This document shows, in pieces, positions 17,177 to 46,655 of a DNA stretch of 56,883 bases; the first letter of the stretch is position 1; every line of letters begins with the position of its first letter. Both the position numbers and the translations under genes were made by a program. The stretch lies in the NCBI GenBank assembly GCA_024401555.1, contig JAKSKV010000019.1, positions 1 through 56,883 of the forward strand. Reading direction: 5' to 3'. The stretch comes from Paludibacteraceae bacterium (GTDB taxonomy: Bacteria; Bacteroidota; Bacteroidia; Bacteroidales; Paludibacteraceae). The notes beneath the pieces are model-generated. The model did not search any database, was not told where the DNA came from, and saw only the letters and a program-made list of their open reading frames with translations.

Positions 17177-17227
17177 ATGCCTATCAAGCCCGAAAATAAA
17201 TCTCGCTATCCTAAGAGAATTTATTAA
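17177..17227 (+). pseudogene. HNH endonuclease, 5' fragment
   Basis: MPIKPENKSRYPK, the typical N-terminus of small phage/Bacteroidetes HNH endonucleases, then three codons and a stop created by the tnpB element boundary. The other half is at 18876-19058; about 60-75 middle residues (including the CxxC knuckle) are missing. Confidence 0.75.
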
Positions 17228-17318
17228 AAATGCTATGTTGATGTTGCAGTTTTATTGTTTTGTTGATAAATTCCACAAATATTTCTTTCCTAAATTTGGA
17301 GAATGGGAGATTATTACC

Positions 17319-17326
17319 TACCTTTG
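17319..17326 (+). promoter_or_regulatory. Promoter -7 element of tnpB element, copy 1
   Basis: TACCTTTG, identical in copy 2 (33488-33495) within a nearly identical 100-nt upstream region. The expected transcript start falls at the beginning of the structured RNA. Confidence 0.65.
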
Positions 17327-17330
17327 CATC

Positions 17331-17482
17331 GTTCAATTTTTTATAACGCATAATCAATATAAAGAAATAATGCTATGTTTTAGCATCTAAATATTGTGAT
17401 ACTTGCCCCATATCTGCATAGTAATGATGCAGATGCACCAAGCGTTATGGTGTTGAACAATGGGTAGCGAGTATCACTTTTT
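17331..17482 (+). ncRNA. Predicted pseudoknotted RNA, copy 1
   Basis: Stem A: GTTCAA (17331-17336) with TTGAAC (17453-17458), and ATAACGC (17343-17349) with GCGTTAT (17442-17448). Hairpin D: ATGCTA/TAGCAT (17370-17386). Stem B: GATACTTGC (17398-17406) with GCGAGTATC (17467-17475). Hairpin C: ATCTGCAT/ATGCAGAT (17412-17434). B starts inside A and closes after it, so A and B form a pseudoknot. A T5 run follows B. Every helix is kept in copy 2 although the bases differ. Confidence 0.75.
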
Positions 17483-17504
17483 GTTCAAAAAAAATAACGC
17501 AACT

Positions 17505-17699
17505 ATGGAGAGATCTAACCCAATCACCGCTTCAATCAAAGCGAACTATGACCCTGACGAAATCAAGGGTATGAGAAACGCAGTACAGACATTGCTCACC
17601 TTCTGCTTGAGTGATGACGAAATCCTTCCTTGTCTTGATACTGACACCTGCTATCATGCAAGTACGGTTATCAAGATGTTTGATGATAGCATGGCATAA
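17505..17699 (+). CDS. Small passenger protein of tnpB element, copy 1
   Basis: 64 residues (MERSNPITASIKANYDPDEI), ending with VQTLLTFCLSDDEILPCLDT. Its last 45 residues closely match the copy 2 homologue, whereas the first 20 differ strongly. Lies between the structured RNA and tnpB, 17 nt before tnpB. No family recognised. Not a TnpA. A role with the upstream RNA or in tnpB control is inference. Confidence 0.7.
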   Translation: MERSNPITASIKANYDPDEIKGMRNAVQTLLTFCLSDDEILPCLDTDTCYHASTVIKMFDDSMA

Positions 17700-17716
17700 A
17701 CATTCCATTTCGCGTC

Positions 17717-18820
17717 ATGATTGCATACAAGTACAAGCTATATCGGACCGATAAGACGAAACATCTGGATAAGATGCTTCGCGAGGCTTCATTTGTATGG
17801 AATCATGCCCTTGCCTTGCAGAAACGCTACTACCGTCTATACAAGAAGTATATCAGCTGTAAAAGAATGCAGGGACACTTTGCCAAACGAATAAATAGAT
17901 TCCTTTTGCATTCCCAGACGGTTCAGGAAATCCTTCAACGTCTCGATGAAGCGTACATGCGTTTCTTCAAGCATCTTGCTGTCCGTCCTCCGAAGTTCAA
18001 GAAGGCAAAGCACTTCTCTTCCTTTCTCTTCAAACAGGGAGGTTTCAAGCTGGACGGCAACAAGATCCGCATCAACAAGATTTCAAAGACCTACAAGTTC
18101 TCACTATCTCGGGAGTACCAGGGAAAGGTGAAGACGGTCATGTTCAAGCGCAGTCCTCTCGGTGAATACTACATCATCGTCACAACCGATGCTGTTGCCA
18201 ATGCCTACGGAAAGTCACATAATGGTGCATCCGTCGGTATTGACTTCGGTCTGAAGACCTATATGACAATGAGTGATGGTACCATCGTCGAGAGCCCTCG
18301 TTTCCTGAAGACCGACCTTCCTTCACTCCAGAAGAATGGTCGCAAACTCTCCATGTGCAAGCAGCACTCCCACCATAGAGAGCAGCGACGCAAGGATATG
18401 AACCGACAGTATGAGCGCATTGTCAACAAGCGTAATGATTGGCAATGGAAACTTGCTCACGTTCTTTGCCGTAAGTACGACCGAATCTTCATTGAGGATC
18501 TTCGCCTCACAGGTATGACAAAGCTCTGGGGAAGGAAGATGTCGGACTTGGCACATGCCGAGTTTGTCAACAAACTGAAGCATGTTGCCGGGAAGTATGG
18601 TGTCACCGTCCATAAAATTGACAGATTCTTCCCTTCAAGCAAGACCTGCACTTGTGGGTATGTCAACAAAGAATTAACCCTCAGAGACCGTCACTGGACG
18701 TGTCCTGAGTGCGGTACCCGTCACCACCGTGACGAGCTTGCCGCATCCAATATACTTCGGCAGGGCATTGCCGAATTGGAGAGTGGTTGTAAGACTACAT
18801 GCCGTCCTAAGACGGTGTAG
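17717..18820 (+). CDS. tnpB: TnpB RNA-guided nuclease, copy 1
   Basis: 367 residues. TnpB proteins of IS200/IS605 elements are RuvC nucleases guided by omega RNA made from the element's right end; they cut empty target sites and help keep the element. RuvC residues are visible: Asp in GIDFGLK (about 176), Glu in IFIEDLRL (about 260), Asp in HHRDELAASNIL (about 339). The zinc ribbon has CPEC (329-332), but the first knuckle is C-T-C rather than the usual CxxC. Differs from copy 2 in only three residues, all near the C-terminus (AELESGC here, VELESDR there). Confidence 0.93.
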   Translation: MIAYKYKLYRTDKTKHLDKMLREASFVWNHALALQKRYYRLYKKYISCKRMQGHFAKRINRFLLHSQTVQEILQRLDEAYMRFFKHLAVRPPKFKKAKHFSSFLFKQGGFKLDGNKIRINKISKTYKFSLSREYQGKVKTVMFKRSPLGEYYIIVTTDAVANAYGKSHNGASVGIDFGLKTYMTMSDGTIVESPRFLKTDLPSLQKNGRKLSMCKQHSHHREQRRKDMNRQYERIVNKRNDWQWKLAHVLCRKYDRIFIEDLRLTGMTKLWGRKMSDLAHAEFVNKLKHVAGKYGVTVHKIDRFFPSSKTCTCGYVNKELTLRDRHWTCPECGTRHHRDELAASNILRQGIAELESGCKTTCRPKTV

Positions 18821-18874
18821 CAGACACGTTTGTATCCAAGAATCTCATTCCCTTTAGGGGTGAGAGTATGTCAA
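18795..18874 (+). ncRNA. Right end / omega-RNA scaffold, copy 1
   Basis: Two hairpins: CTACATGCCGTC/GACGGTGTAG overlapping the tnpB stop (18795-18820) and CTCA-CCC/GGG-TGAG (18844-18864), ending in GTATGTCAA at 18874. By the known TnpB rule the next bases (from 18875, CATTGCACACCTCGACCACA) would be the guide. That stretch encodes the HNH IAHLDH region. The 5' limit of the RNA inside tnpB is not defined. Confidence 0.65.
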
Positions 18875-18875
18875 C

Positions 18876-19058
18876 ATTGCACACCTCGACCACACTCCTG
18901 AGAATTGTGAGCCAGACAACCTTAGAGCCCTGTGCCAACGCTGCCATAATCGCTATGATGCGGAGCATAGGAAAATAACAAGGAGAAGGAGCAGGGAGCA
19001 AGGAGGCCAAGCCTCATTGAACGGGGGCTTTGCCAAAGATGACAAGGGAAAGATATAG
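18876..19058 (+). pseudogene. HNH endonuclease, 3' fragment
   Basis: Frame reads IAHLDHTPENCEPDNL, then RALCQRCHNRYDAEHRK: the HNH catalytic half with its CxxCH knuckle. The last 15 or so codons run through hairpin array 8 to a TAG. In frame continuity with 17177-17227 is lost. Confidence 0.75.
19001..19050 (+). repeat. Hairpin-module array 8
   Basis: Type 1 variant (GAGGCCAAGCCTC) plus a degenerate type 3 (TTTGCCAAAGATGACAAG). Overlaps the broken HNH 3' end. Confidence 0.7.
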
Positions 19059-23787: not shown

Positions 23788-24399
23788 CTAACCGAATACA
23801 AGTTTCTGAGGATAACCTGCGGTGTAGTCATAAGAGAGTACCGCTTCAATAGTGTCGAGATTAGAAGCCTCGGAGATATGACGTGCCGTGACATTATAGC
23901 AGTCGAGAGCATAAATCTCGAGGGCTGACAACATCTGGATTACGTTATCAACAGGAAGGGTGATGTTAATATCACCAAACCATAGAGTCGTGGTTTCCTG
24001 TCCTGCCGACTTGAGGATTGTGGTACTGTTCATCAGTCCGACGCGTGTTGCCTTATCGAGCCACAAATCCATGCCGTTATATACGAAAGAATTGACGGCA
24101 GGAGAGGAATCGTAGGCTGTGATAACATCTATCAGAGGAGCAACGAGTGCTTCCTGTGGGGATGCGAGTGTGTTTTCCTTTACCACCACAATCTCCTCTT
24201 CCGACAGAAGAATACCGTTTTGAAGGACTACTGACACCACATTAGCGATAGATGGATTCTTGAGGGAGAAAGACAAACACTCCCACTGCTTGTTACCTTC
24301 TGCATCGGGAGCAATTTCACGGATTGAGAAGTTGAAGGTCTTGTAGTCATTAAGACCAGCCTCGCAGATACAAGGCTTTGACAAAGTTATTGATTTCAT
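23788..24399 (-). CDS. DUF4376-like phage protein in the DGR operon
   Basis: 203 residues (MKSITLSKPCICEAGLND). C-terminal segment (about 148-203) with ALEIYALDCYNVTARH and DYTAGYPQKL resembles DUF4376-like ends of phage tail proteins. Its ATG overlaps the stop of the reverse transcriptase (ATGA) and its stop abuts the next gene. Likely tail accessory or assembly protein for the variable tip. Confidence 0.65.
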   Translation of the reverse strand: MKSITLSKPCICEAGLNDYKTFNFSIREIAPDAEGNKQWECLSFSLKNPSIANVVSVVLQNGILLSEEEIVVVKENTLASPQEALVAPLIDVITAYDSSPAVNSFVYNGMDLWLDKATRVGLMNSTTILKSAGQETTTLWFGDINITLPVDNVIQMLSALEIYALDCYNVTARHISEASNLDTIEAVLSYDYTAGYPQKLVFG

Positions 24400-25817
24400 G
24401 CGGATATGTAGTTTTTAGTTATTTTCTTTTTGATGTGAATGCTCTGATAGTGTCCTTTGACATAGAAATACTTCCAGAATGACGGAACAAACATACAGAT
24501 ATACTTTCTTCGTTTACGATACGTGCGATGACGGACACAAAAGCCGAGATAGGAATTAACCACACATTCTATTCTCGTCAGGTCGAATATCGTAACAACA
24601 TCCTTATCTAATATGCGATTGAAGCCTACAATACGTTCCTTGAACCGCGCCAAAGTACGCGAAGACAAGTATGTGCGACCATTCTTGATGAATGCCCCAA
24701 CGTATGAGACTCCATGCGACACGGGCTGACAATATTTCTTATCCTTGTGTACCTTGAGGTGCAATTCCTTTTCGATGTAATCCTCAAGGGTTCTGACCCT
24801 CTGGAGCATTTGCTTCTTGTCGTCACAGATTATGACAAAATCGTCCACGAAACGCACATAATGATAGTTGAGCCCAGAGAACAGTTCCTTTGCTTTCTCG
24901 TCCATCTGTGCCATATAGAAATTCGCAAAGAGCTGCGTGGTGAGATTACCGATTGGAATACCCTTGTCATCATCGGTGCGGAACAAAGATTTTGACGGTT
25001 TCAGATTCCTCCACATATCGGGAGGAGAATTGAGAATGCAATTCTTCTCGGGAGAATGGAATACCACCATCCTTGTGAGCCACAAGAGCAAATCCTTATC
25101 GTGGAAGTCATACTTCGCGTTAATGAATGCTTCAAGTCGCTGCCATAACAGAGGCTTGGGTATTCGCATATAGAACGAATCCATATCACCCTTGTACACC
25201 CATGCCTCCTTGCGATAGTTGCAACTGATCCTTCGCATCGCATTAGCGACCTCACGGATAGAGTATATACTTCCAAAACCCTTACGGCAGTTATGACTGA
25301 CATTCCCGAGTCGGGCATGCTCGAACTCGAACAAAGGATTAAGGCGCATACATATCCAATGGTGAACAATGCGATCACGGAACGATGCCGCAAACACCTC
25401 GCGGTACTTAGGGTATTTCACCATGAAGCACGTTGACACCCCGATGGTATAGGTACGGTCATAAATTTCCTTTGCCAGGACATTTAAATCAACATAGGCT
25501 ATTGACATGTATTCGACGGCTTGCTTTGACGTGCGCTTATGGTGCAGACAATCAAGATAGGCATCAATGACGGAATCTCTCAGATATGGAAAATCTGCAC
25601 ATGCTGCCACTGGGCGCACGGAATTGCTGTTGTACTTGTTGTTGTTGTTGACGTTGCTGCTGTTGAAGTTGACATTCCAAGCATTCAACGCGTTGTTCTC
25701 TGAACTGCTCCAGTGATTCGAAGCTGATTCCTGCGTTTCTGCATCATCGTAGCGAGCGGAAGAATGACTTCTCCCACCTGCAAAACGCCCATATACAAGA
25801 TTCTCACGATGTCTCAT
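24396..25817 (-). CDS. DGR reverse transcriptase, template repeat inside frame
   Basis: Frame of 473 codons. Residues about 78-440 form the reverse transcriptase: KGDMDSFY (about 209-216, first catalytic Asp), GIPIGNLTTQ (286-295, close to the DGR signature IPIGNLTSQ) and YVRFVDDFVII (320-330, FVDD catalytic box). It makes mutagenised cDNA from the template repeat. Residues 31-73 are the translated template repeat itself. There is no ATG between the repeat and the enzyme, so translation starts upstream of the repeat at 25817 or at a GTG within it (VAACADFPYL). Overlaps the next gene by 4 nt. Confidence 0.93.
   Translation of the reverse strand: MRHRENLVYGRFAGGRSHSSARYDDAETQESASNHWSSSENNALNAWNVNFNSSNVNNNNKYNSNSVRPVAACADFPYLRDSVIDAYLDCLHHKRTSKQAVEYMSIAYVDLNVLAKEIYDRTYTIGVSTCFMVKYPKYREVFAASFRDRIVHHWICMRLNPLFEFEHARLGNVSHNCRKGFGSIYSIREVANAMRRISCNYRKEAWVYKGDMDSFYMRIPKPLLWQRLEAFINAKYDFHDKDLLLWLTRMVVFHSPEKNCILNSPPDMWRNLKPSKSLFRTDDDKGIPIGNLTTQLFANFYMAQMDEKAKELFSGLNYHYVRFVDDFVIICDDKKQMLQRVRTLEDYIEKELHLKVHKDKKYCQPVSHGVSYVGAFIKNGRTYLSSRTLARFKERIVGFNRILDKDVVTIFDLTRIECVVNSYLGFCVRHRTYRKRRKYICMFVPSFWKYFYVKGHYQSIHIKKKITKNYISA
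25601..25727 (-). repeat. DGR template repeat (TR)
   Basis: 127 bp matching the VR at 26361-26487. I count 16 differences, all at positions that are A in the TR on the coding strand, the hallmark of adenine mutagenesis. The 3' 21 bases on the coding strand, including GTGCGCCCAGTGGCAGC, are identical (initiation of mutagenic homing). Very rich in AAC/AAT codons. Confidence 0.95.
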
Positions 25818-25845
25818 GTCTCTGTTTTTCTATGTTCGTACAACA

Positions 25846-26274
25846 TTAAGAAACATGACCCGACCGTAATGTAGAATCACGCCAGCCATAAAGTTGCGCC
25901 ACTGTATTGTCACATATCTTCTTGGCTTTGTTATGCACATCTTTTGACATCAATCCTCTGCCATAATACAATCCAAGGTGTGCCTTGAGTGTAAAAGTAC
26001 AGACTACTGCATCGGTAATGTACAAAATGCGTTCTTCTCCCCTATTTTCGTTTGCAAGACCTATCGTCTTCAGCAGAGAGTTAGCTATATCTATGCTGGA
26101 ATCCGTAAAACGTCTTGTATTACGTGGTGTCCTCGCTGCAAGATCAACAACAAATCCAAGCAGCGTCACCCCATTGCGAAAAACGGGTAACTGAGCTATA
26201 GTTCTCGTCTTCTTTTGCTTATTTTCGTCAGACTGTGCCACTTCCTGCGCAGTCAAAACAATGCCATCGGTCAT
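25846..26274 (-). CDS. avd: Avd-like DGR accessory protein
   Basis: 142 residues. Predicted four-helix bundle: LPVFRNGVTLLGFVVDLAAR, then PRNTRRFTDSSIDIANSLL, then ERILYITDAVVCTF, then SKDVHNKAKKICDN. Layout fits Avd, the basic pentameric protein that binds the reverse transcriptase and template RNA. An N-terminal extension of about 28 residues is added. Lies between the target gene and the reverse transcriptase, the classical DGR order. Confidence 0.85.
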   Translation of the reverse strand: MTDGIVLTAQEVAQSDENKQKKTRTIAQLPVFRNGVTLLGFVVDLAARTPRNTRRFTDSSIDIANSLLKTIGLANENRGEERILYITDAVVCTFTLKAHLGLYYGRGLMSKDVHNKAKKICDNTVAQLYGWRDSTLRSGHVS

Positions 26275-26309
26275 GTCAATACCTATGTTTTTTAGTTCTG
26301 TTTATAATG

Positions 26310-26336
26310 GGCGTGCGCCTTGAAATGGCGCACGCC
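26310..26336. promoter_or_regulatory. Hairpin 3' of the DGR variable repeat
   Basis: Perfect 10-bp stem GGCGTGCGCC/GGCGCACGCC with loop TTGAAAT, 24 bp beyond the 3' end of VR. In the Bordetella phage DGR a hairpin just after VR is needed for efficient homing; this is in the equivalent place. It could also act as a transcription attenuator. Confidence 0.7.
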
Positions 26337-26343
26337 GTTAAGG

Positions 26344-29300
26344 TTAAAGGCTAAATATATATGCTGCCACTGGGCGCACGGAACCGCTGTAGCACTTGTA
26401 GCTGTTGTAGACGTTGCTGCTGTTGAAGCCGACACCCCAAGCAAGCAACGCGTTGTACTCTGAACTGCTCCAGTGAGACGAAGCTGACAAATTCGCAAAT
26501 ATTCCCTGATTGCCTCCTGCCTCTGCTATACGTTCGTACATTTTAGCAAAAATAGGATTCCATGCGTCAACCCCCTCAAAGCCCTGCTCCTTGTCATAGT
26601 CGGCATAATCCTTGTTAGGAGTATTGCTATTAGTCGCAGTGTTGGTGGTAGTCATCGGATTGTTACGGCTGATGTTGTAATGGTGGTACAGTCGTATCAA
26701 TTCGCCCGCAGACGGCAGATACCATCTACCTTGCTTTAGCTGTTCGTCAACCTCGCCTCTGTTCACAGTAGGCTGGTAGAGGTGGCAGGCATAGGCGGCT
26801 GGATAAGCAAACTGATAATACTTTGCCTTAGTACCATCACCTGCTTGCTTGTACAGAACATCATACATATAGTCGGCAAGTTCCTGAAGGTTGCGAGGAG
26901 GATCCATAGCTATACCTAACCCACCACCGCCATCTGCTTTTTTAGGTTCATTCACCCATGTCTGGATGATAGTGTCTGCCCATCTTACCAGAGCCTCTGT
27001 ATGCTCACGTCCGTTCCAGTCACCTATGGCAGTATTGACAGCAGCGACACCAGGGGTGTACTGCTTCTTATATCCTCCATACTCAGAATCCTCTCCAGTA
27101 GTCATGAGAGCCTGAATGTAGTCAGCATAAGCATAGTTGGTAGGTAGTCCGTGACCCGTAAACTGAGTGATGTCAGCAACATCAAACATACTTGTGTAGC
27201 TCTTGCCAGTGCGCTCGTTAATGAGATCAAGCACCTCCTGCATTTCTGCCGCAGTAAATCCGTTTGCACCGCCAGTGGTATCATTATACAATCCCCATGA
27301 CATTGATGTGGTTACAGGGGTGGCAGTATCGCTCATCTGACGCATGTACTCCTTAGACACGATAAGGAGCTTCATGAATTTAGCCTTCGGGTCGATGACA
27401 TAATCATTGTTCACCTTCTCATATTTCAGAACAGGGTTGTTTCGTGTCACCTCGTCAGGATTGAACTCGTACCAAAGGCGTGCAAATACGATACCTGCAA
27501 GATCCTTCGTGTTGTCGTAAATATCATCGAAAGTTCCGTCCATATAGCAGAAGTCACCGAGACGTGGAATACGACGATAGAAACCGATAACACGGTCAAC
27601 AGACACCGAAGAACCATTTATGAGAGTCAGATTAGCACTCACCACATAGTTTACATACTGGTCTGAGAAAGATGTAATGTGAACTACACCGCTCTCTGCG
27701 TTGATAGTAGCATGTGGGTTGGAAGACAGAGCCCAGTCGATAGCAAGGCGGTTGCCTATGATACGAACATCATTAGCATTAATATTGAGAGGCTGAACAT
27801 ACAAGCCACGATAGTAATAGTTGCCAGCAGTTCCATCACATATCTCTTCGTGGATATACTTGTCACCATAGATACCAATATCGCTCACAGACACCCTACG
27901 GTAGCGAAGATACAGGTCATTCTCAGGGCTGTCAATATCACCGAACTTCTCTGCCAGCTTACGTTTATCGTCAAAACCGTAAGTACCAGATGCTGATGCG
28001 GAATTGATTTCACCCGTGAATCTACCGTTGTTATCAACGAACCACATCACCATACCAGGCGCAGGAAGGTTGACACCACCATTACCCCAGTTGACACCAA
28101 GGAACTGAACATTGCGCAAACCAGTAGGCTTGGCGTTGTAGATGCTCTGCGCGAAGACAAGGGAATCAAGTTTATCATTACCAGAACCCACATACACATC
28201 CTGAAGGTAGGCATATCCCTCAAGTGTAAGGGCTGAAAGATTAGGTACACCTGCAATACGCACACCGCTCATCTTCTCTCCAAAGCGTATCTCCTCAAGA
28301 GTCTGTGTCTCTGGAATATCACACGTATTGATTGAAGTCTTGCGAAGGTCGATGCTCTTCAGTCGCGTGAGTGCCGACATATTGAGGTGAGAGCCTACGT
28401 CAGCACAATTAATCTGTATGCTCTCAACAAGTTTTGCGGTAATGTCAATAGCAGCTGGACGGAACTCGCCTTTACCACTCAGAGGAACAGCTTCAATCTT
28501 AGTAAGACGCTTGCCACCAATTCTGAGGGTTTGTGTTGGATCTACTACGACTTCACCTAAGTTGCCTATTTCTCTGTAATAATCCAAACCGAAGAGTGAA
28601 ATGGTTGTATCACTCCTACAATCATCACTTATAAGAATCTCATAACTGTCACGAGGAGATAATCTTACATGTGGATTGATGAGCGTTTCACCAAATGCTC
28701 CAACAGGATAGAGATACTGATGCGGTTTTACTGTAAATGCAATACGCGCTCCAGTACCATCACGTTTAGACCAACCTCTGAAACCGAAAGAACCTTCCTT
28801 ACCATCCTTGGAGAATATGCCAGAAGCAGAATACGACATAAAATACGCCAATCTCCTATCCATATACTGCAACTCACTTTCAAGCTGAGAACCAAGTTGC
28901 TGAGTTATAGGGTTTACAGTATCAATAGATATGATATTCTCATTCACCTGAATCTGACGTTTCTCATATCTGACACGTGCCTGTTCAATATACGCAATAC
29001 AAGGGATAGAACGCTGAATGCCGAAGAAATACTTCTCCATGAATCCATTTATAGAACCACTCAGATATGCCATCTTTGTAAAGATTGCATTCATCATTTC
29101 CTGCTTCTCACTCTCGTAGGCGCGGTCGAATGTATTAAAGAACATATTATGAGTGCCAGAATAGCATTCTGTTCCTTCATCATCAATATGATACACTCTG
29201 TCAACATAGTAAGGCTTTGTCTGCCAACCTACATTATTCGTCTTAAAGATTGTATCAAGGTCATCCGCGTGAAAGTTGATGATATGCTTAACAGGGTCAA

Positions 29301-32300
29301 CGACGTAGTATGTATTCTTGGCGCAGTTGTCAGAGCCAGCAAGAAGATTCTCCACAAAGCAGGAATGGAACAACTTGGAACGCACATTGTAGTAATTCTT
29401 TCCACTTGCCTTGAAGCGTGTGATGATACTCTTTATCAAGGACTCATTGGTAGCTGCATAGTCAGCAGAGAACTCGACTGATGGATTCTCATCAAAGATA
29501 TTACGGCTTTCCTTATTGATACCTGCACGTACCCAAGCACGATCTACGGGCGACCAAGAGAACAAATCACCAATCTCAGCAATATCATCAGGTGAGGTAA
29601 TCCAGTACTGGGAGTGAATATCTGCTGAGTCTGCCGCATTGATAAGCGAAGTAGCAGTACCACCATTGTTAGTCCAAGGCAGAAGGTCTGTACAATGGAG
29701 ATAGCCAAAGTTGATGAAGTTCTTCATCACATCGACTGCGATACCAGTAGGAATGTCTTTGTCGTTTGCATCCTTGATGGTAGCACCTGCATCAAAATCA
29801 ATGTTTCCCTTGCCATTATACTCAAAGTATTCCTCGGCAGGATTGTAAGTAACCTCATCAGTCCAAGGTCTCTCAAAGTTAGTAACAGGCTGGTCGTTGT
29901 CAGAACCCTCAAACATAGCGAAGTCAGGATATACTTCATCATCATATCCCCATGTCTTCTTATCCATCTTACCAGAACCAAAAGTCATGATGCCTTCAAA
30001 ACGTGGAGTTAAAGATTCTGGTTCCTGAACAAAGAAAAAGAACATATCTTCCTTACACGTACAACGAGTCTTGGAATCCTCTGCCATGATGGTGTCAAGG
30101 CTGTTATAGTCAGTCATGATTGCACGATAGAGGTCATTGTAAGCGTTTGTTGCTCCCATCTTATGACTCTGCATAGATGAAGCATAATTTATCTTACCGA
30201 CGAGCTTGTTGGACTTGGCATCCTTTGTGTTGAGATAGTAATAAGCACCTTTATATTTGCCGTTGCCATCTATCCAGCCATCAATGACTTCTTCTCCATC
30301 GACGATAATCTTACCCGTTGCTTTCTTTGCATCGTACTGTTGGTTCCAGTCGCAATAGTGCTTGGCTGTAGAACCCTGCCCCTTCACAGGGAGGGATGCA
30401 GTGTCGTGACAAATATCACCAGATGTGTCAGGGTCATATCGACCATTCACGAAATGGTCGATATGCAGCCAGCAGGTTGTTGAGTCTGGGTGCTGAATGC
30501 TTGTAGGTACTCCGTGATGAACGATACACGAATATTTCTCACGTGCAAGTTCGTAGGAGATAGTACCATCAGCACCTATGATGTCGTTGGCATCAGCAAA
30601 GGTAAGTTTCTGTGCGCTTGTAGGAAGTGAGGACTTGTAGTTTTGCATGACATTCTGCGAAGACAGAGCCTTGCGGTACACCTTGATGGAGTAGATGTCA
30701 ATATCAGCACCAGACTGTCCTATCTCAATAGAGTAAGGGTCACGTCCCCACTCATTCTGCTTGAGAGCAAACATAAACTCACGATAAGGATTAGCATTGA
30801 CAAACACGCGGACAAGAGGAACGGTATTACGGCTATCAGGGTCTGCGTATATGGCAGAGCATATATTAATGGCTATATGTGTGCGCACATCCTCACGGAA
30901 ACCGAAGTTCTGCTCACCCTCGGTAGTCTTTGATGATGTCATTACCAGGCCCTCAATAGGATAGATTCGTGCTCCTGTGAACTTTCCGCTTGCAAGGACG
31001 AAATTAGCTATATCAATGATAGGGTCAGTCTCGTTCGTGACATTTGAGATCTTAACGTCAAGCTCGATAGTGACATTAGCGGCATAGTTGGTCTGAAACT
31101 CGGCGAATGGATCATAGTCGATATGCACGTGCTGTCCTGCGAGAACGCGAAGCACTCGTCTGCCATCAGCAGCCTGAATCCATCCGTCGTTATTATCGAA
31201 TGAAAATCCCTCGAATGTTGCACCGACAGGATTATTCTTCTTTGCCGCATTAAGTATCTGGGCAGGGTTTGCTTCACCATTGTTACGGTTGGAAGGGTTG
31301 ATGTAGAGGTCAGCACCGCTTACTGGAGAGAAATCGTAATTATTGTCAACAGTGATGATGATAGAGTCTGTTCCGTTGAGCATATTGAATCCATCGGCAT
31401 CCTTGGCACGGAAATACGCATAGCTTGACACACCGAGACTTGCGCCCTCAATCTCAATAGTGCCAGGCACAGAGTACTTAGTTCCGTTCTTCGCCATGCT
31501 CTCAGTATTCATATACGACTGCTCCTGATTATAGTCGGTTATCAGGAACGACACCTTTGTGCCTTCCTCTGGATTAAGAGGATTATAGACGGCAAACTGA
31601 AAGAGCGGATCTTCCTGCACATAGTTGTTCACCTCAGTGTTCAACTGCTGAAGCATAAGGTAGGCATTGCGGGAAGAAGGGTCTGCCACAACCATGACCT
31701 GATTACGCACATGGTCACTTGAATAAGTGTTATCATCACTGGTACAAGTCACCCACGCCTCGATGGTATGCACACCATGACTCATAATCTTAACAGGATC
31801 AGTCGGAGAATCATTAGGATTACTGCGAGGTCGCCAAGGAGTTGTACGAGGGTAGGTATTCGTGCCTATCACCTCTTCAAAATCACGATATTGCTTGCCA
31901 TCATTGGAATAGATACGGAGGTGCATAGTCTTATATACGTCCGTACCGCCTATCGCATAAGCGACTGGGATTCCGTCGTCAAGGTCTGTAATGGCGCGTT
32001 CCCAAGCAAAAACAGGGGTAACGCCAAGAGTAGCCTTGACTACACTCTGGAATATCAAACGACCTACCGCGCCAGTCGTCTCATCCTTGGCGACAATACG
32101 AATCTGAGAGCTTCCATCAGGGATAACATCAGTAATGTCAATCTCCTCAAAGGCAGTAGATGTCATAGGCATTGATGGGAGCGGCAATGTCAGGATTGTG
32201 GTGTAGTTACCGTTGGCAAAACGCTGCACCTCAACCTCCATGATAGAACCCGTGTCTGCACCGCCCTCAGTACTGACGATACGCACATGAAGGGCTACCT

Positions 32301-32592
32301 TACCTCCAGTTTCCACATAGGACGTGGTACTCTCAAGTGCAACGATGCTGACACTTGCTTCTTCACTTGGCAGTACTATAGTTCCGTCCTCTGGAACGTA
32401 TGTCTGGGAACCACGGACAATCTTCTTGACTGCCTTTACAGACTCGTTCTGCAATTCAAGGATAGGTTTTACTATCTTTTCGACAAACTCACTCGCAGGG
32501 AGCGTCTCTTCCTGCGGAATACCGTTTTCCTCAACATAGGTCTGTTGTTCTACGTTGTCGGTTTTGTTTAGTAGGTCTTTAATATCAATCAT
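26344..32592 (-). CDS. Giant tail protein, DGR target with C-type-lectin-like end
   Basis: 2082 residues, probably the receptor-binding tail or baseplate protein. The N-terminal 450 residues look like Ig/FN3-type beta modules. Residues about 455-660 resemble a LamG/concanavalin-like domain (GWIQAADGRRVLRVLAG, then NVTIELDVKI, then IDIYSIKVYRKALS). The middle is large and unassigned. The C-terminal 150 residues look like a DUF1566/Lcl or formylglycine-enzyme-like C-type lectin fold: RWYLPSAGELIRLYHHYN, then SHWSSSEYNALLAWGVGF, then VRPVAA. The last 45 residues are the variable repeat. Adenine-targeted changes in 11 codons would alter the receptor-contact surface. Confidence 0.9.
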   Translation of the reverse strand: MIDIKDLLNKTDNVEQQTYVEENGIPQEETLPASEFVEKIVKPILELQNESVKAVKKIVRGSQTYVPEDGTIVLPSEEASVSIVALESTTSYVETGGKVALHVRIVSTEGGADTGSIMEVEVQRFANGNYTTILTLPLPSMPMTSTAFEEIDITDVIPDGSSQIRIVAKDETTGAVGRLIFQSVVKATLGVTPVFAWERAITDLDDGIPVAYAIGGTDVYKTMHLRIYSNDGKQYRDFEEVIGTNTYPRTTPWRPRSNPNDSPTDPVKIMSHGVHTIEAWVTCTSDDNTYSSDHVRNQVMVVADPSSRNAYLMLQQLNTEVNNYVQEDPLFQFAVYNPLNPEEGTKVSFLITDYNQEQSYMNTESMAKNGTKYSVPGTIEIEGASLGVSSYAYFRAKDADGFNMLNGTDSIIITVDNNYDFSPVSGADLYINPSNRNNGEANPAQILNAAKKNNPVGATFEGFSFDNNDGWIQAADGRRVLRVLAGQHVHIDYDPFAEFQTNYAANVTIELDVKISNVTNETDPIIDIANFVLASGKFTGARIYPIEGLVMTSSKTTEGEQNFGFREDVRTHIAINICSAIYADPDSRNTVPLVRVFVNANPYREFMFALKQNEWGRDPYSIEIGQSGADIDIYSIKVYRKALSSQNVMQNYKSSLPTSAQKLTFADANDIIGADGTISYELAREKYSCIVHHGVPTSIQHPDSTTCWLHIDHFVNGRYDPDTSGDICHDTASLPVKGQGSTAKHYCDWNQQYDAKKATGKIIVDGEEVIDGWIDGNGKYKGAYYYLNTKDAKSNKLVGKINYASSMQSHKMGATNAYNDLYRAIMTDYNSLDTIMAEDSKTRCTCKEDMFFFFVQEPESLTPRFEGIMTFGSGKMDKKTWGYDDEVYPDFAMFEGSDNDQPVTNFERPWTDEVTYNPAEEYFEYNGKGNIDFDAGATIKDANDKDIPTGIAVDVMKNFINFGYLHCTDLLPWTNNGGTATSLINAADSADIHSQYWITSPDDIAEIGDLFSWSPVDRAWVRAGINKESRNIFDENPSVEFSADYAATNESLIKSIITRFKASGKNYYNVRSKLFHSCFVENLLAGSDNCAKNTYYVVDPVKHIINFHADDLDTIFKTNNVGWQTKPYYVDRVYHIDDEGTECYSGTHNMFFNTFDRAYESEKQEMMNAIFTKMAYLSGSINGFMEKYFFGIQRSIPCIAYIEQARVRYEKRQIQVNENIISIDTVNPITQQLGSQLESELQYMDRRLAYFMSYSASGIFSKDGKEGSFGFRGWSKRDGTGARIAFTVKPHQYLYPVGAFGETLINPHVRLSPRDSYEILISDDCRSDTTISLFGLDYYREIGNLGEVVVDPTQTLRIGGKRLTKIEAVPLSGKGEFRPAAIDITAKLVESIQINCADVGSHLNMSALTRLKSIDLRKTSINTCDIPETQTLEEIRFGEKMSGVRIAGVPNLSALTLEGYAYLQDVYVGSGNDKLDSLVFAQSIYNAKPTGLRNVQFLGVNWGNGGVNLPAPGMVMWFVDNNGRFTGEINSASASGTYGFDDKRKLAEKFGDIDSPENDLYLRYRRVSVSDIGIYGDKYIHEEICDGTAGNYYYRGLYVQPLNINANDVRIIGNRLAIDWALSSNPHATINAESGVVHITSFSDQYVNYVVSANLTLINGSSVSVDRVIGFYRRIPRLGDFCYMDGTFDDIYDNTKDLAGIVFARLWYEFNPDEVTRNNPVLKYEKVNNDYVIDPKAKFMKLLIVSKEYMRQMSDTATPVTTSMSWGLYNDTTGGANGFTAAEMQEVLDLINERTGKSYTSMFDVADITQFTGHGLPTNYAYADYIQALMTTGEDSEYGGYKKQYTPGVAAVNTAIGDWNGREHTEALVRWADTIIQTWVNEPKKADGGGGLGIAMDPPRNLQELADYMYDVLYKQAGDGTKAKYYQFAYPAAYACHLYQPTVNRGEVDEQLKQGRWYLPSAGELIRLYHHYNISRNNPMTTTNTATNSNTPNKDYADYDKEQGFEGVDAWNPIFAKMYERIAEAGGNQGIFANLSASSHWSSSEYNALLAWGVGFNSSNVYNSYKCYSGSVRPVAAYIFSL
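26361..26487 (-). repeat. DGR variable repeat (VR)
   Basis: Ends 17 bases before the stop of the tail gene. Compared with TR, 11 amino acids differ (Asn to Ser, Tyr, Leu or Gly, and one Tyr to Cys), all through adenine positions. Non-adenine positions are unchanged across the 127 bp. Confidence 0.95.
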
Positions 32593-33234: not shown

Positions 33235-33384
33235 TTAATCCTCAATATACCTCACGATAGTATCTTCGGATATGTGGCCAATAGTCTCACAGTAGTAAGT
33301 TCGAGTCCAGAGGGTTGGAATACGACTCTTGAGCTTGGCGAACTCTCGACGTAGAACAACAGAGGGGTAACCATTCCGTCGATA
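33235..33384 (-). pseudogene. tnpA (Y1 transposase), C-terminal remnant
   Basis: Minus-strand frame reads YRRNGYPSVVLRREFAKLKS, then PTLWTRTYYCETIGHISEDT, then IVRYIED and stop. This matches the C-terminus of IS200/IS605 TnpA (LWTRSYFV ... GxVSxxxIxxYIExQ). The catalytic N-terminal part (HUH and Tyr) is missing; the frame breaks where similarity between the two elements starts. Divergent from tnpB, as in IS605. Confidence 0.75.
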
Positions 33385-33487
33385 AGAATTTAATCAAAAT
33401 GCTATGTTGATGTTGCAGTTTTATTGTTTTGTTGATAAATTCCGCAAATATTTCTTTCCTAAATTTGGAGAATGGGAGATTATTACC

Positions 33488-33495
33488 TACCTTTG
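33488..33495 (+). promoter_or_regulatory. Promoter -7 element of tnpB element, copy 2
   Basis: TACCTTTG, as in copy 1; predicted transcript start falls at stem A of the structured RNA. Confidence 0.65.
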
Positions 33496-33498
33496 CAG

Positions 33499-33643
33499 CG
33501 AACAAAAAATTACACGGCATTTTCAAAATGCGGAAGATAGATTAAAAATATACTCTTGGCATTCGCCCCGTATCTGCATTATAATGATGTGGATGCACTT
33601 CGTGTAAAAGTGTTGTTCGACGGGTAGCGAATGTCATTTTTTT
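33499..33643 (+). ncRNA. Predicted pseudoknotted RNA, copy 2
   Basis: Same architecture as 17331-17482 with different bases. Stem A: CGAACAA (33499-33505) with TTGTTCG (33613-33619), and TTACACG (33510-33516) with CGTGTAA (33601-33607). Hairpin D: GCATT/AATGC (33517-33531). Stem B: GGCATTCGC (33558-33566) with GCGAATGTC (33627-33635). Hairpin C: ATCTGCAT/ATGTGGAT with two G-T pairs (33572-33594). T7 run follows. Best-conserved unpaired parts are GCCCC-TATCTGCAT and TAATGATG. Confidence 0.75.
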
Positions 33644-33676
33644 ATGGCTCTGAACAAGCTTTTTTATTACACAATT

Positions 33677-33874
33677 ATGGTACAACCAGAAAAAGAGATC
33701 TCCTTGGCATTCAAGAAGAACATGGATCCCGAAGACATTGAAAGTATGAGGGACGCAGTGCAGACATTACTCACATTTTGCCTGAGTGATGATGAAATCC
33801 TTCCTTGTCTTGACACAGACACTTGCTTTCACGCAAGCAACGTAATCAAGATTTTGAATGACAGTATGGCATAA
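33677..33874 (+). CDS. Small passenger protein of tnpB element, copy 2
   Basis: 65 residues (MVQPEKEISLAFKKNMDPED). The C-terminal 45 residues, with VQTLLTFCLSDDEILPCLDT, match copy 1 almost fully; the N-terminus does not. 17 nt before tnpB. No recognised family. Confidence 0.7.
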   Translation: MVQPEKEISLAFKKNMDPEDIESMRDAVQTLLTFCLSDDEILPCLDTDTCFHASNVIKILNDSMA

Positions 33875-33891: not shown

Positions 33892-34995
33892 ATGATTGCA
33901 TACAAGTACAAGCTATATCGGACCGATAAGACGAAACATCTGGATAAGATGCTTCGCGAGGCTTCATTTGTATGGAATCATGCCCTTGCCTTGCAGAAAC
34001 GCTACTACCGTCTATACAAGAAGTATATCAGCTGTAAAAGAATGCAGGGACACTTTGCCAAACGAATAAATAGATTCCTTTTGCATTCCCAGACGGTTCA
34101 GGAAATCCTTCAACGTCTCGATGAAGCGTACATGCGTTTCTTCAAGCATCTTGCTGTCCGTCCTCCGAAGTTCAAGAAGGCAAAGCACTTCTCTTCCTTT
34201 CTCTTCAAACAGGGAGGTTTCAAGCTGGACGGCAACAAGATCCGCATCAACAAGATTTCAAAGACCTACAAGTTCTCACTATCTCGGGAGTACCAGGGAA
34301 AGGTGAAGACGGTCATGTTCAAGCGCAGTCCTCTCGGTGAATACTACATCATCGTCACAACCGATGCTGTTGCCAATGCCTACGGAAAGTCACATAATGG
34401 TGCATCCGTCGGTATTGACTTCGGTCTGAAGACCTATATGACAATGAGTGATGGTACCATCGTCGAGAGCCCTCGTTTCCTGAAGACCGACCTTCCTTCA
34501 CTCCAGAAGAATGGTCGCAAACTCTCCATGTGCAAGCAGCACTCCCACCATAGAGAGCAGCGACGCAAGGATATGAACCGACAGTATGAGCGCATTGTCA
34601 ACAAGCGTAATGATTGGCAATGGAAACTTGCTCACGTTCTTTGCCGTAAGTACGACCGAATCTTCATTGAGGATCTTCGCCTCACAGGTATGACAAAGCT
34701 CTGGGGAAGGAAGATGTCGGACTTGGCACATGCCGAGTTTGTCAACAAACTGAAGCATGTTGCCGGGAAGTATGGTGTCACCGTCCATAAAATTGACAGA
34801 TTCTTCCCTTCAAGCAAGACCTGCACTTGTGGGTATGTCAACAAAGAATTAACCCTCAGAGACCGTCACTGGACGTGTCCTGAGTGCGGTACCCGTCACC
34901 ATCGTGACGAGCTTGCCGCATCCAATATACTTCGACAGGGCATTGTCGAGTTGGAGAGTGACCGTAAGACTACATGCCGTCCTAAGACGGTGTAG
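33892..34995 (+). CDS. tnpB: TnpB RNA-guided nuclease, copy 2
   Basis: 367 residues, same RuvC triad and zinc ribbon as copy 1 (GIDFG, IFIEDL, RDELAASN). Nearly identical to copy 1 at the DNA level along the whole gene, implying recent duplication or gene conversion. C-terminal GIVELESDRK differs from GIAELESGCK. Confidence 0.93.
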   Translation: MIAYKYKLYRTDKTKHLDKMLREASFVWNHALALQKRYYRLYKKYISCKRMQGHFAKRINRFLLHSQTVQEILQRLDEAYMRFFKHLAVRPPKFKKAKHFSSFLFKQGGFKLDGNKIRINKISKTYKFSLSREYQGKVKTVMFKRSPLGEYYIIVTTDAVANAYGKSHNGASVGIDFGLKTYMTMSDGTIVESPRFLKTDLPSLQKNGRKLSMCKQHSHHREQRRKDMNRQYERIVNKRNDWQWKLAHVLCRKYDRIFIEDLRLTGMTKLWGRKMSDLAHAEFVNKLKHVAGKYGVTVHKIDRFFPSSKTCTCGYVNKELTLRDRHWTCPECGTRHHRDELAASNILRQGIVELESDRKTTCRPKTV

Positions 34996-43816: not shown

Positions 43817-44446
43817 ATGGGAAAAATCATCGTCTTTAGCAATCTGAAGGGCGGTTGCGGCAAGAGTACGCTATGCTGCCACTTCGCACATTATCTCGTG
43901 AAGAAGAACCAGCAGGTTTGCGTGTTGGATGCCGACACTTCACAGAACATCTATAATATGCGCCAGCGTGAGATTAGCGCAGAGCCGGACACGGAAGAAC
44001 CTTGGAAGGTATGGCAGCTTGCAGGCACAGGTAATATCAAGGCAATCATGGAGAGAGCAAAGGAAATGGATGGGTATGTGCTGATAGACTGTCCTGGTAC
44101 ACTCAGCGACAAGAACCTCCTTACAGTGTTCCAGTATGCCGATGTAGCGGTTGTGCCATTCCGATATGATGACCTTGTGGTGGATAGTACGATAAGCTTC
44201 TCCAAGGTGCTGAAGAACGAGGTTCCAGAGATTAAGATCATCTATGTACCGAATATCATCCGTCTGGCAGTGAAATATCCATTGGAGGCTCAGGCTACGG
44301 ATATGTTCTCACATGTGGGGATTGTAACCTATCGTATCACCGATGCAGTGGCAGTGCAACGCATATCATCGCTTCATGGGCAGGATGAGCAGCAGGAGAA
44401 TGCGACTGGTGGAGCGTTTAACAGTATATACGAGGTGGTGAGGTGA
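43817..44446 (+). CDS. parA: ParA-type partition ATPase
   Basis: 209 residues. Deviant Walker A KGGCGKST (11-18), Walker B-like YVLIDCPGT (about 88-96), and the DADTSQN switch (about 39-45). Short ParA without N-terminal DNA-binding domain, typical of type Ib plasmid partition. Drives segregation of the plasmid prophage with the RHH protein encoded next. Leader is AT-rich and contains the probable centromere. Confidence 0.92.
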   Translation: MGKIIVFSNLKGGCGKSTLCCHFAHYLVKKNQQVCVLDADTSQNIYNMRQREISAEPDTEEPWKVWQLAGTGNIKAIMERAKEMDGYVLIDCPGTLSDKNLLTVFQYADVAVVPFRYDDLVVDSTISFSKVLKNEVPEIKIIYVPNIIRLAVKYPLEAQATDMFSHVGIVTYRITDAVAVQRISSLHGQDEQQENATGGAFNSIYEVVR

Positions 44447-44599
44447 GTACGAACACGGGAAATAATGGGACAGAAATAACTAAAATAATAAAATAGCTAA
44501 AATAATAAAATATTAAATTAGCGAATTTACTAAATAAATAAATTAGTTAATTTAAGTATTTATTCATTTTAATAATTTAAGGATTTAACTAATTGAAAT

Positions 44600-44932
44600 A
44601 TGGGAAAGAAAACGACATTTACGGGATTTGATGATCTCATGAACAACCCGAAGGATAGTGCAGCACTCTCTACGGATGCACTCAAGGGCAATGAACCAGC
44701 TAAACAGCAGAAAGCAACGAAGGGTGCTGCTGCCGGATGCAAGATAGGGCATACACGCCACACCTACGTGATGCCAGAGACGATGATAAGCAAACTGAAG
44801 GCTATAAGTGGCTATCTTGGCAAGTCTGAGGTGAACATCGTACTTGAAATGCTGGAAGAGGGCATCGAGAAGTACGAAAAGAAATACGGCAAGCAAATTT
44901 CTGACATCACGCGAGGCAGGGTAGGGGAGTGA
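44600..44932 (+). CDS. Ribbon-helix-helix partition protein (ParB-like role)
   Basis: 110 residues. Disordered basic N-terminal half, then a C-terminal RHH fold: RHTYVMPETMISKLKAISGY, LGKSEVNIVLEMLEEGIEKY. Size and position after parA match ParG/ParB-type centromere-binding proteins of type Ib systems. Likely binds the AT-rich repeats on either side of parA and represses the operon. Confidence 0.8.
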   Translation: MGKKTTFTGFDDLMNNPKDSAALSTDALKGNEPAKQQKATKGAAAGCKIGHTRHTYVMPETMISKLKAISGYLGKSEVNIVLEMLEEGIEKYEKKYGKQISDITRGRVGE

Positions 44933-44939
44933 CCAAGCA

Positions 44940-45012
44940 AACAATATGGCTGACCATATTGAACTGGGAACAGAAAGGACCGAAGGAGAACCTTCGGGAA
45001 CGGTGGCTGAGA
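44940..45012 (+). repeat. Hairpin-module array 21
   Basis: Type 1 (CAATATGGCTGACCATATTG, loop shortened), type 2 (CCGAAGG-AGAA-CCTTCGG) and a linker, just before the origin. Confidence 0.75.
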
Positions 45013-45040
45013 ACTTACTACCGTATAAGGCAAGATTAGT

Positions 45041-45450
45041 AAGTACGCGGATTTCTTCCCATAGACCCTAAAAAAAAGAGGAAAAATACGCGGATTTCTT
45101 CCCCTCAATGAACAGACAAGCGAGGTAAGTACGCGGATTTCTTCCCCTTAAAAAATGATAAAGCACTGACATATAGAAAGATAACACGATAAATAAATTT
45201 GCTAAATAATAAAACAAACAAACATTATATATATAATATTATTCTTAATATAAGAAAATTAATGATAATTTGTTTTATTTATATATATATTTAGTGTTTT
45301 ATAGAAGTGTTATGTATCAATGAGTTACGAGTTTTGAGGGGAAGAAATACGCGCACTTTTCCCTTAAAAAAAAGATACTTAGGGGAAGAAAACCACGTAC
45401 TTTCCCCTTAAAAAATGACACCCAGGGGAAGAAAACCACGTATATTCCCC
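45041..45450 (+). other. Theta-type replication origin with iterons
   Basis: Three direct iterons (TACGCGGATTTCTTCCCC type) start at 45041, 45084 and 45127, exactly 43 nt apart. Three in opposite orientation (GGGGAAGAAA-(A/T)(A/C)CGCG/CACG type) start at 45338, 45382 and 45425, 44 and 43 nt apart. Between them, 45185-45300 is very AT-rich (TATATATAATATTATT), a likely unwinding element. The inverted set reaches the rep start region and may autoregulate rep. Spacing equals about four DNA turns, so Rep dimers would sit on one face. Confidence 0.88.
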
Positions 45451-45467
45451 TATAAACAATATATATT

Positions 45468-46655
45468 ATGGAAGATAACAACGAAAAGAATGCTATAAGA
45501 TGGATAAATACACCATTCTCTTATGCAATGCAGGGCAACAGGTATAACCTTTCGCAGCAGGCTCTTCTTCTGAAGGTTTCAAATGCTATACAGGAATACT
45601 TTCCATCGTTCTTTAGCTCGGAGCATAGCAGGAGCAAGCAAGACCCTCTATCTCTGCTTACTGATGAACAGATAGAGGCTGGCATACCACCTATAGAGGT
45701 GACGATGGCCGAACTGGGAATATACTCAGATACTGCAACAGCAAGGGAGGTTCTGAACAAGGCTTTGTCGCTCAAGGTATATAGGCAGGAGGTAGTCAAT
45801 GGAAAACTGACATATAAGGCATACAATGTTTTTTCCGAAAGCGAAATAGCAGAGGGTAGTACCACGGCATACATCAAAATAAATATGAATGTAGTAAAGG
45901 AAACATTCAAAATGAATAACGGATATATCACGCATCCTGATGACATCGCCCTACTTGCCAAGAACGAGAAAATGCCTATCCTTTACTTCATCCTTAAAAA
46001 GAAGATGAAGAACTGGGAGTTTAACAAGGTGAAGATAACACCGAAAGAATTGCGCAAAGACCTTGGCACTACGATTACTGATCAGGACACAGGAGAAGTG
46101 ACTGTACATTACCCACGATTCTCCAAACTCCGCAAATATGTGATAGATCCTACTCTCAAAGACCTTGAGCGCATGAAGAATGAAGGTAATATAGAATGCT
46201 GCTTTACCGTAGAGTATGATTACATGGGGAGGCGTGAAGTAGGCGACCCTACATACATCGTATTCCGAATAAAGACAGACGAGGCAGAAGAACTATCCTC
46301 TGTGGCCAAGACTACAGAGAGCAAGACTGCCGACGTCAATATGGGAACTACCGAAGCTCCAAAGGTAAAGCGTGGACGTTCATGGAGTCAACAGACCATA
46401 GACAATGCGTGGAGTTCTTTCCTTCTTCATTACACAGGTAGGGCAAAGGAGGCTTTTGAAAAGGTTACGAAATGCAACGGATATGACCGCTATCACCATA
46501 AGATACGTATAGAATACACTCAGGAGGTGCAGGGAATATTCTCCAGTCTTGGACTCACGGAAGAAGAAAAGCGCGATATATACGCACAACTCACCAAGCA
46601 TTTTAAGAGTGAGGTCGTGGGATTGCTAAGAGACCAACCTTCAATGTTTGCATAA
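45468..46655 (+). CDS. Plasmid replication initiator, Rep_3-like
   Basis: 395 residues. Two winged-helix-like halves of a Rep_3/RepB initiator: NLSQQALLLKVSNAIQEYFP (about 27-46), TMAELGIYSDTATAREVLNK, then ALLAKNEKMPILYFILKKKM (about 162-181) and ITPKELRKDLGT with RFSKLRKYVIDPTLKDLERM (about 221-240). Binds the iterons upstream to open the origin. A C-terminal extension of about 110 residues (KRGRSWSQQTIDNAWSSF onward) is not typical of Rep_3 and is unassigned. Directly follows the origin. Confidence 0.87.
   Translation: MEDNNEKNAIRWINTPFSYAMQGNRYNLSQQALLLKVSNAIQEYFPSFFSSEHSRSKQDPLSLLTDEQIEAGIPPIEVTMAELGIYSDTATAREVLNKALSLKVYRQEVVNGKLTYKAYNVFSESEIAEGSTTAYIKINMNVVKETFKMNNGYITHPDDIALLAKNEKMPILYFILKKKMKNWEFNKVKITPKELRKDLGTTITDQDTGEVTVHYPRFSKLRKYVIDPTLKDLERMKNEGNIECCFTVEYDYMGRREVGDPTYIVFRIKTDEAEELSSVAKTTESKTADVNMGTTEAPKVKRGRSWSQQTIDNAWSSFLLHYTGRAKEAFEKVTKCNGYDRYHHKIRIEYTQEVQGIFSSLGLTEEEKRDIYAQLTKHFKSEVVGLLRDQPSMFA

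Follow-up and report, generated by a model that had tools for sequence, protein, structure and literature searches.

The closest described counterpart of the RNA analysed here is C4 of P1 and P7 (RF01695, clan CL00128; targets c4-a1b1, RF03163). The P1 record annotates a1, b1, the C4 RNA, a2, b2, icd and ant1 in that order, and in the Rfam C4 consensus a closing stem encloses one hairpin, another whose loop measures 12 nt, and a junction strand of 7 nt. In the CI RNA of P4, an antisense segment has complementary words up- and downstream within the same leader. SymR is a cis-antisense RNA that overlaps its target, and in type III toxin-antitoxin systems the RNA is repeated in tandem ahead of a ToxN-like gene. 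According to an Acinetobacter study, C4 has three stem-loops and is released from a longer transcript by RNase P; its segments a' and b' bind target mRNAs, b' partly over the ribosome-binding sites (PMC5320573). C4 is listed for Proteobacteria and phages in a table of a 2010 survey (PMC2864571). The literature searched, which included few subscription journals, held no report of a C4-type RNA from Bacteroidota, although the tables of a human-microbiome catalogue of structured RNAs could contain the motif (PMC8040213). Among publications on TnpB with antirepressors, phage-plasmids, toxin-antitoxin systems, antisense RNA or IS605, none was about such a linkage by its title.

The two tnpB elements and their RNA

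The window, by which we mean the whole stretch of 56,883 nucleotides that was analysed, holds two tnpB elements, copy A and copy B. In each, a Bacteroidota-type promoter element comes first, then an RNA some 145-155 nt long, a small gene encoding 64-65 aa, and tnpB (Table 1). The -7 element TACCTTTG follows the Bacteroidota promoter consensus; a strict regular expression for the TAnnTTTG motif matched upstream of the first word in 14 of the 35 RNAs assembled below. The tnpB of copy B starts 17 nt past the small gene, a gap in which a separate promoter would hardly fit.

Table 1. Positions of the features of copies A and B in the window, with the evidence for each; duplex energies were computed
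Feature	Position	Strand	Evidence or remark
Copy A promoter element TACCTTTG	17319..17326	+	read directly
Copy A a1 GTTCAA (17331-17336) and b1 ATAACGC (17343-17349)	17331..17349	+	cognate duplex -17.9 kcal/mol
Copy A C4-like core	17397..17476	+	fold, pair conservation, R2 covariance model 89.0 bits
Copy A long stem	17397-17411/17460-17476	+	fold, pair conservation
Copy A hairpin D	17412-17434	+	fold
Copy A hairpin C, with b' GCGTTAT at 17442-17448	17435-17453	+	fold
Copy A a' TTGAACA	17453-17459	+	junction strand
Copy A T-run, five T	17478..17482	+	sequence
Copy A a2 TGTTCAA (17482-17488) and b2 ATAACGC (17494-17500)	17482..17500	+	before ATG 17505; duplex -16.4 kcal/mol
Copy A small gene, 64 aa	17505..17699	+	dN/dS comparison with copy B
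Copy A tnpB	17717..18820	+	1033/1034 bases identical to copy B over 17717-18750
Copy B promoter, Bacteroidota-type -7 element TACCTTTG	33488..33495	+	read directly
Copy B a1 CGAACAA (33499-33505) and b1 TTACACG (33510-33516)	33499..33516	+	exact complements of antisense segment; duplex with own segment -16.2 kcal/mol, best among RNAs tested
Copy B C4-like core	33557..33636	+	fold, pair conservation, R2 covariance model 85.9 bits
Copy B long stem	33557-33571/33620-33636	+	TA bulge 33625-33626; encloses hairpins D and C
Copy B b' CGTGTAA	33601-33607	+	loop of hairpin C
Copy B a' TTGTTCG	33613-33619	+	junction strand
Copy B T-run, seven T, intrinsic-terminator-like (predicted)	33637..33643	+	sequence, behind stem
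Copy B a2 GAACAA (33652-33657) and b2 TTACAC (33667-33672)	33652..33672	+	5' of small-gene ATG; duplex -13.4 kcal/mol
Copy B small gene, 65 aa, icd-like position	33677..33874	+	dN/dS 0.14 vs copy A
Copy B tnpB	33892..34995	+	NF040570 guided_TnpB 237 bits; Pfam OrfB_IS605, Cas12f1-like_TNB

In each RNA, a long stem interrupted by a TA bulge surrounds two hairpins, with the T-run behind it, and the fold is better than that of shuffled versions (copy A, z -4.66; copy B, z -2.80). The 5' words a1 and b1 are complementary to the loop of the second hairpin (b') and the strand after it (a'); since the words lie outside the long stem and their partners inside it, the topology is that of a pseudoknot. 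Most of the a1b1 words recur as a2b2 directly 5' of the ATG of the small gene in both copies, which the preliminary description of this DNA had not noticed. That description had otherwise correctly placed a structured, pseudoknotted RNA of about 150 nt, with its stems and a following run of five to seven T, between the promoter and the small gene of both elements. Its statement that most paired bases differ between the copies is true of the pseudoknot words but not of the long stem: between the copies, all 29 nested pairs were kept, five of them by two-sided and four by one-sided changes. Close to the 3' end, at least four T were found in 34/35 RNAs, a count favoured by search patterns and a model that had selected for the T-run. 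A simple terminator scan, whose loop limit was 8, did not report the T-run of copy B.

The identity between the copies changes along the element, from 97.2% in the promoter part to 63.0% in the RNA and 72.8% in the small gene, then 99.9% over most of tnpB and 92.7% over the end of tnpB and the right end of the element. To judge from a dN/dS of 0.14 at a dS of about 1.6, the small gene is under purifying selection. Given this mosaic and these rates, the RNA and the small gene look like old, selected paralogues within recently homogenised flanks.

On the minus strand, a 3' remnant of an IS200-type tnpA (33238-33387; Y1_Tnp, E 5e-8) ends just left of the region shared by copy B, and no such remnant was seen at copy A in the MAFFT alignment of the two. 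Copy A apparently interrupts an HNH endonuclease gene (17178-18980), whose middle looks absent; the C-terminal part lies right of the element (HNH E 0.0014, below the cut-off), and the N-terminal part was recognised by eye.

Elsewhere in the window, a set resembling a diversity-generating retroelement, with a reverse transcriptase gene (RVT_1), occupies 24396-26487. A 127-nt repeat at 25601-25727, overlapping the start of the reverse transcriptase ORF, shares 87% identity with a stretch (26361-26487) that forms the end of a large ORF (26344-32592), like a template and variable repeat pair, of which the former would be the template side. A ParA-like ATPase and 43-nt direct repeats (45358-45486) lie within 43817-46655, before a 395-aa ORF without a Pfam match. 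This region may be a replication or partition locus of plasmid type, and the phage in the window may therefore, like P1, be a phage-plasmid. A 45-nt repeat of the CCGAAGGAGAACCTTCGGGAACGGTGGC type occurs 15 times across the phage (e.g. 338-382, 22027-22071 and 46742-46786).

Relatives of the RNA and pairing with cognate leaders

A first covariance model (R1), built from the two copies of the window, added a single genome (52.1 bits) when 358 of the family were searched; R1 also matched copy A weakly on its minus strand, which was taken for a mirror of copy A. Two narrow DNA patterns of the RNA core had no match in viral contigs. A broader core pattern gave nine stretches there, seven real and two due to chance (L019, L023), and a similar one gave 12 in named-genome contigs, 4 real and 8 chance, some pattern-found loci being the same sequence twice. 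When three RNA regions were compared by blastn with phage records, a single match was obtained (L083). With a second covariance model (R2), built from 11 sequences, matches were found in 14/393 genomes of the order (E up to 0.01) and in 4/395 of the phylum (E up to 0.001), the genome of the window being included in both counts; in the phylum sample, two loci belong to a single genome from another order of the class, and a further genome lies outside the class. The RNA set thus comprised 24 places from the order search, 3 new ones from the phylum search, 8 pattern-found loci and 1 phage record, that is 36 RNAs, of which 35 are distinct (33 and the two of the window). L018 and L027, the latter from Porphyromonadaceae bacterium H1 (both with the sequence of L016), and L020 (that of L031) were omitted from the alignment (A7), and L021, whose core is that of L017, was removed from the 35.

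In these 35 RNAs, 91.9% of pair cells hold standard pairs, compared with 67.0% after shuffling (0/500 shuffles as high) and 34-43% with slid partners, and 26/29 pairs show changes on both sides. By these counts the covariation is strong, with the reservation that the alignment follows the structure of the model and that its rows were found by that model or by a pattern, which favours such counts. Hairpin C is the least conserved helix, paired in 69.3% of cells. Chance pairing was rejected as an explanation.

Each antisense segment was then paired computationally with the leader of every RNA. The cognate a1b1 leader was the best partner in 31/35 RNAs (32/36 before duplicate removal), with a mean of -28.5 kcal/mol against -14.0 for non-cognate leaders, which shows complementarity to the cognate leader. 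The four exceptions are L066:3077 and L067:3906, which stand at array starts and have no cognate leader words, L077:5315 and, by a narrow margin, L079. At the start codon, cognate complementarity is more weakly shown, and across the RNAs the a1b1 signal is the stronger of the two. In a fixed 68-nt window, the cognate mean was -15.2 vs -9.7 kcal/mol (p 6e-9), with rank 1 in 15/35 RNAs and rank 5 or better in 28/35; copy A ranked 1 and copy B 4, and L075, L076 and L077:5315 had no cognate start-side pairing. Automatically chosen start codons, wrong for some loci including copy B, gave rank 1 in 17/35 (p 4e-7), and a wider window in 6/36.

Within the window, the segment of copy A reaches -10.1 kcal/mol on the leader and -6.8 on the start region of copy B, and the segment of copy B -8.3 and -12.0 on those of copy A. 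As their seeds differ and each pairs best with its own targets (Table 1), the two copies should act largely independently; since -12.0 on the start of copy A comes near the cognate -13.4 kcal/mol, such independence is likely rather than certain.

Genes behind the RNA and competing explanations

Antirepressor-type genes (KilA-N, Bro-N, ANT or pRha) are among the first genes after 11/35 RNAs (L025, L034, L037, L068, L069, L070, L071, L073, L074, L079 and L082), a link that, like the order of genes, is shown by computation. In 2/35, a SymE-type toxin gene follows the RNA directly (L080, 4961-5353; L081, 3515-3889); the two come from separate contigs of a single genome, which belongs to another order, and by eye the unit of L081 sits among apparent chromosomal housekeeping genes. 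A tnpB match on the locus is confined to the two RNAs of the window, the loci of the other 33 RNAs having none (E up to 1e-3). The RNA model had no match in L002-L008, seven viral loci whose tnpB genes are related to those of the window; in one of them, L002, a TATCTTTG element stands right at the tnpB start. That the RNA is specific to tnpB elements is not supported.

For the small protein of the window, Pfam and NCBIfam matches were weak and below the cut-off, and PHROGs gave none. No relatives beyond the two copies were found in 16 genomes of the genus or 358 of the family, among phages, plasmids and viral contigs, or, with two peptide patterns only, in named-genome contigs. The small proteins tested from other RNA loci, some of the downstream genes, had no family match either.

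Repeated units of a C4-like RNA with paralogous ORFs of about 95-130 aa and different seeds occur at L065 (2745-3226 and 12209), L066 (3077-3775) and L067 (3906-4195). The RNA at the array start of L066 (3077), which has no leader words of its own, forms a duplex of -30.2 kcal/mol with the L065:12209 leader, from another genome of the same genus, as if it conferred immunity against a relative.

We consider it probable, at roughly 0.8, that the window RNA belongs to the C4 type of antisense RNAs and has a promoter and targets of its own. Transcription would start at or just before a1b1, and the RNA would fold as a three-way junction whose antisense seed is made up of the b' loop and the a' strand. 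Most transcripts would end at the T-run that follows the closing stem; in those that read through, or in later ones, b'a' could pair with a2b2 near the start codon of the small gene and block its translation, and the gene behind it, tnpB in the window, would be silenced directly or by polarity. The RNA would be processed and act in trans, and the stronger a1b1 pairing may serve either to mask the seed while it is part of the precursor or to reach another target. Several observations speak against a C4-type RNA: the Rfam C4 models and these RNAs miss each other in both directions (R2 does not find P1), the window copies lack a leader element found in many relatives, the cognate segment is best at the start codon in under half of the RNAs and fails at a1b1 in four, the segment of copy B is nearly as good on the start of copy A, hairpin C is often unpaired, and the next large gene in the window is tnpB, not an antirepressor.

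The same words could also serve a purely cis-acting attenuator or riboswitch, in which a1b1 and a2b2 compete for the inner segment of one transcript. The start codon would be free when the segment holds the 5' words and closed when it holds the 3' words, and a ligand or protein might act as the signal. Both pairings do recur, the stronger one lies at the predicted transcript start, and a T-run follows the stem. We nevertheless regard this as improbable: the order of parts is that of C4 in the P1 record, which the Acinetobacter study treats as an antisense RNA (PMC5320573); the array-start RNAs L066:3077 and L067:3906 keep the core without cognate 5' words; the former pairs strongly with the leader of another unit; and the seeds have diverged between copies as antisense specificity would predict. 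The preliminary description had left the choice between a separate small regulatory RNA and an attenuator between promoter and T-run, and sequence, covariation and conservation fit that proposal; its overall interpretation is partly supported.

A module resembling a type I toxin-antitoxin system, with the small gene as a toxin held off by the RNA so that the tnpB element is retained, is possible, though we doubt it; it is compatible with a C4-type antisense RNA, from which it differs in purpose, and our confidences in the two overlap. The SymE-type toxin genes behind two relatives, one of them in an apparently chromosomal setting, argue for such a module, as do the purifying selection on the small gene, the different seeds of the copies and the inhibition of host cell division by Icd of P1 (PMC8198154), while the lack of relatives and of family matches above the cut-off for the small protein of the window argues against it. 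A ToxI-like RNA of a type III system, suggested by the succession of pseudoknot, T-run and gene, is very improbable and was rejected: by eye the RNA is a single unit rather than a tandem repeat, the small protein has no ToxN-like match, and relatives precede antirepressor-type genes. Equally improbable is an RNA proper to the transposon, such as a guide, an omega-type RNA or an end structure. Its place inside both tnpB elements would suit this, but the seven viral tnpB loci gave no match to the RNA model and the loci of the other 33 RNAs no tnpB match, on which grounds it was rejected as well; the distinction from the omega RNA, made in the preliminary description, is upheld.

If the window RNA is a C4-type antisense RNA, antisense immunity of this kind would be extended to Bacteroidota and their phages, with the gene targets and the specificity-setting pairing words named and the same RNA design present before SymE toxins. 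The seeds would predict which prophages silence each other's antirepressors. In the window, a C4-type operon with an RNA-guided nuclease would exist in two copies, with different seeds, before a selected small gene and a near-identical tnpB, suggesting how the tnpB nuclease of a prophage could be kept silent. More tentatively, and with somewhat less than even confidence, we propose that a mobile tnpB element captured a C4-type antisense cassette that silences its RNA-guided nuclease, that the 65-aa gene is a toxin or regulator, that the copies, with their unlike seeds, share one phage because each has to answer to its own RNA, and that C4-type RNAs of Bacteroidota are a general switch placed before antirepressors, SymE toxins and a nuclease gene.

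Comparison with C4 and other known systems

The preliminary description knew of no described family with this layout, a claim that is not supported: the parts of the P1 record from a1 to ant1 stand in the same order, and the Rfam C4 consensus is also a three-way junction, whose second hairpin loop and junction strand match b' and a'. By model matches, the correspondence is not seen. The Rfam C4 clan models did not match the window copies (gathering cut-off; E up to 5), nor did the Rfam C4 models match the RNAs of relatives (7 loci by gathering cut-off, 24 by E-value). RF01695 had 0 matches in 395 genomes of the class, where the control genomes were equally silent, although the Rfam C4 model does find P1; R2, in turn, had no match to C4 of P1. 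Since each model misses the RNAs of the other, those described here are not members of RF01695 by this test. The c4-2 RNA (RF02944), of the same Rfam clan, did not match them either; at L034, a weak c4-2 match (2822-2896, minus strand; 30 bits, cut-off 41) lies about 1.3 kb downstream of the C4-like RNA and on the opposite strand.

Several traits set the present RNAs apart from C4 of P1 and P7: the T-run behind the stem, another conserved core (CCCGT/ACGGG with a 2-nt bulge), their occurrence in Bacteroidota, an a1b1 pairing far stronger than that of a2b2 and, in the window, tnpB where the antirepressor would be. With SymE/SymR they share the SymE-type toxin genes that follow two relatives; in contrast to the overlapping SymR, the RNA here lies upstream, in the C4 layout. 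The complementary words on both sides of the antisense segment, within the same leader, recall the CI RNA of P4.

The likeness to C4 of P1 and P7 extends over the order of promoter, a1b1, RNA, a2b2, start codon and small gene, with an antirepressor-type gene among the first genes of 11/35 RNAs. The three-way junction, seen in the folds and in the 35-RNA alignment beside the Rfam consensus, is of similar size, and its seed again consists of the second hairpin loop and the junction strand. The b'a' segment is complementary to an upstream a1b1 in both window copies and in 31/35 RNAs and, where the next gene starts, to a2b2 in both window copies, though not in some relatives. The leader stretch from b1 to the RNA contains an element TTTTT(A/G)TG(T/C)C in 20/35 RNAs, and P1 has it at the corresponding place; it occurred in 7/7000 mononucleotide shuffles and is absent from both window copies. 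C4 is cut from its precursor by RNase P at a GG; TATGG at the 5' end of the core, as in P1, is present in 7/35 RNAs and not in the window copies. On these features, the RNAs described here are a C4-like branch that Rfam 15 fails to recognise, and we take the resemblance to mean that they share an ancestor with C4 or have converged on it very closely.
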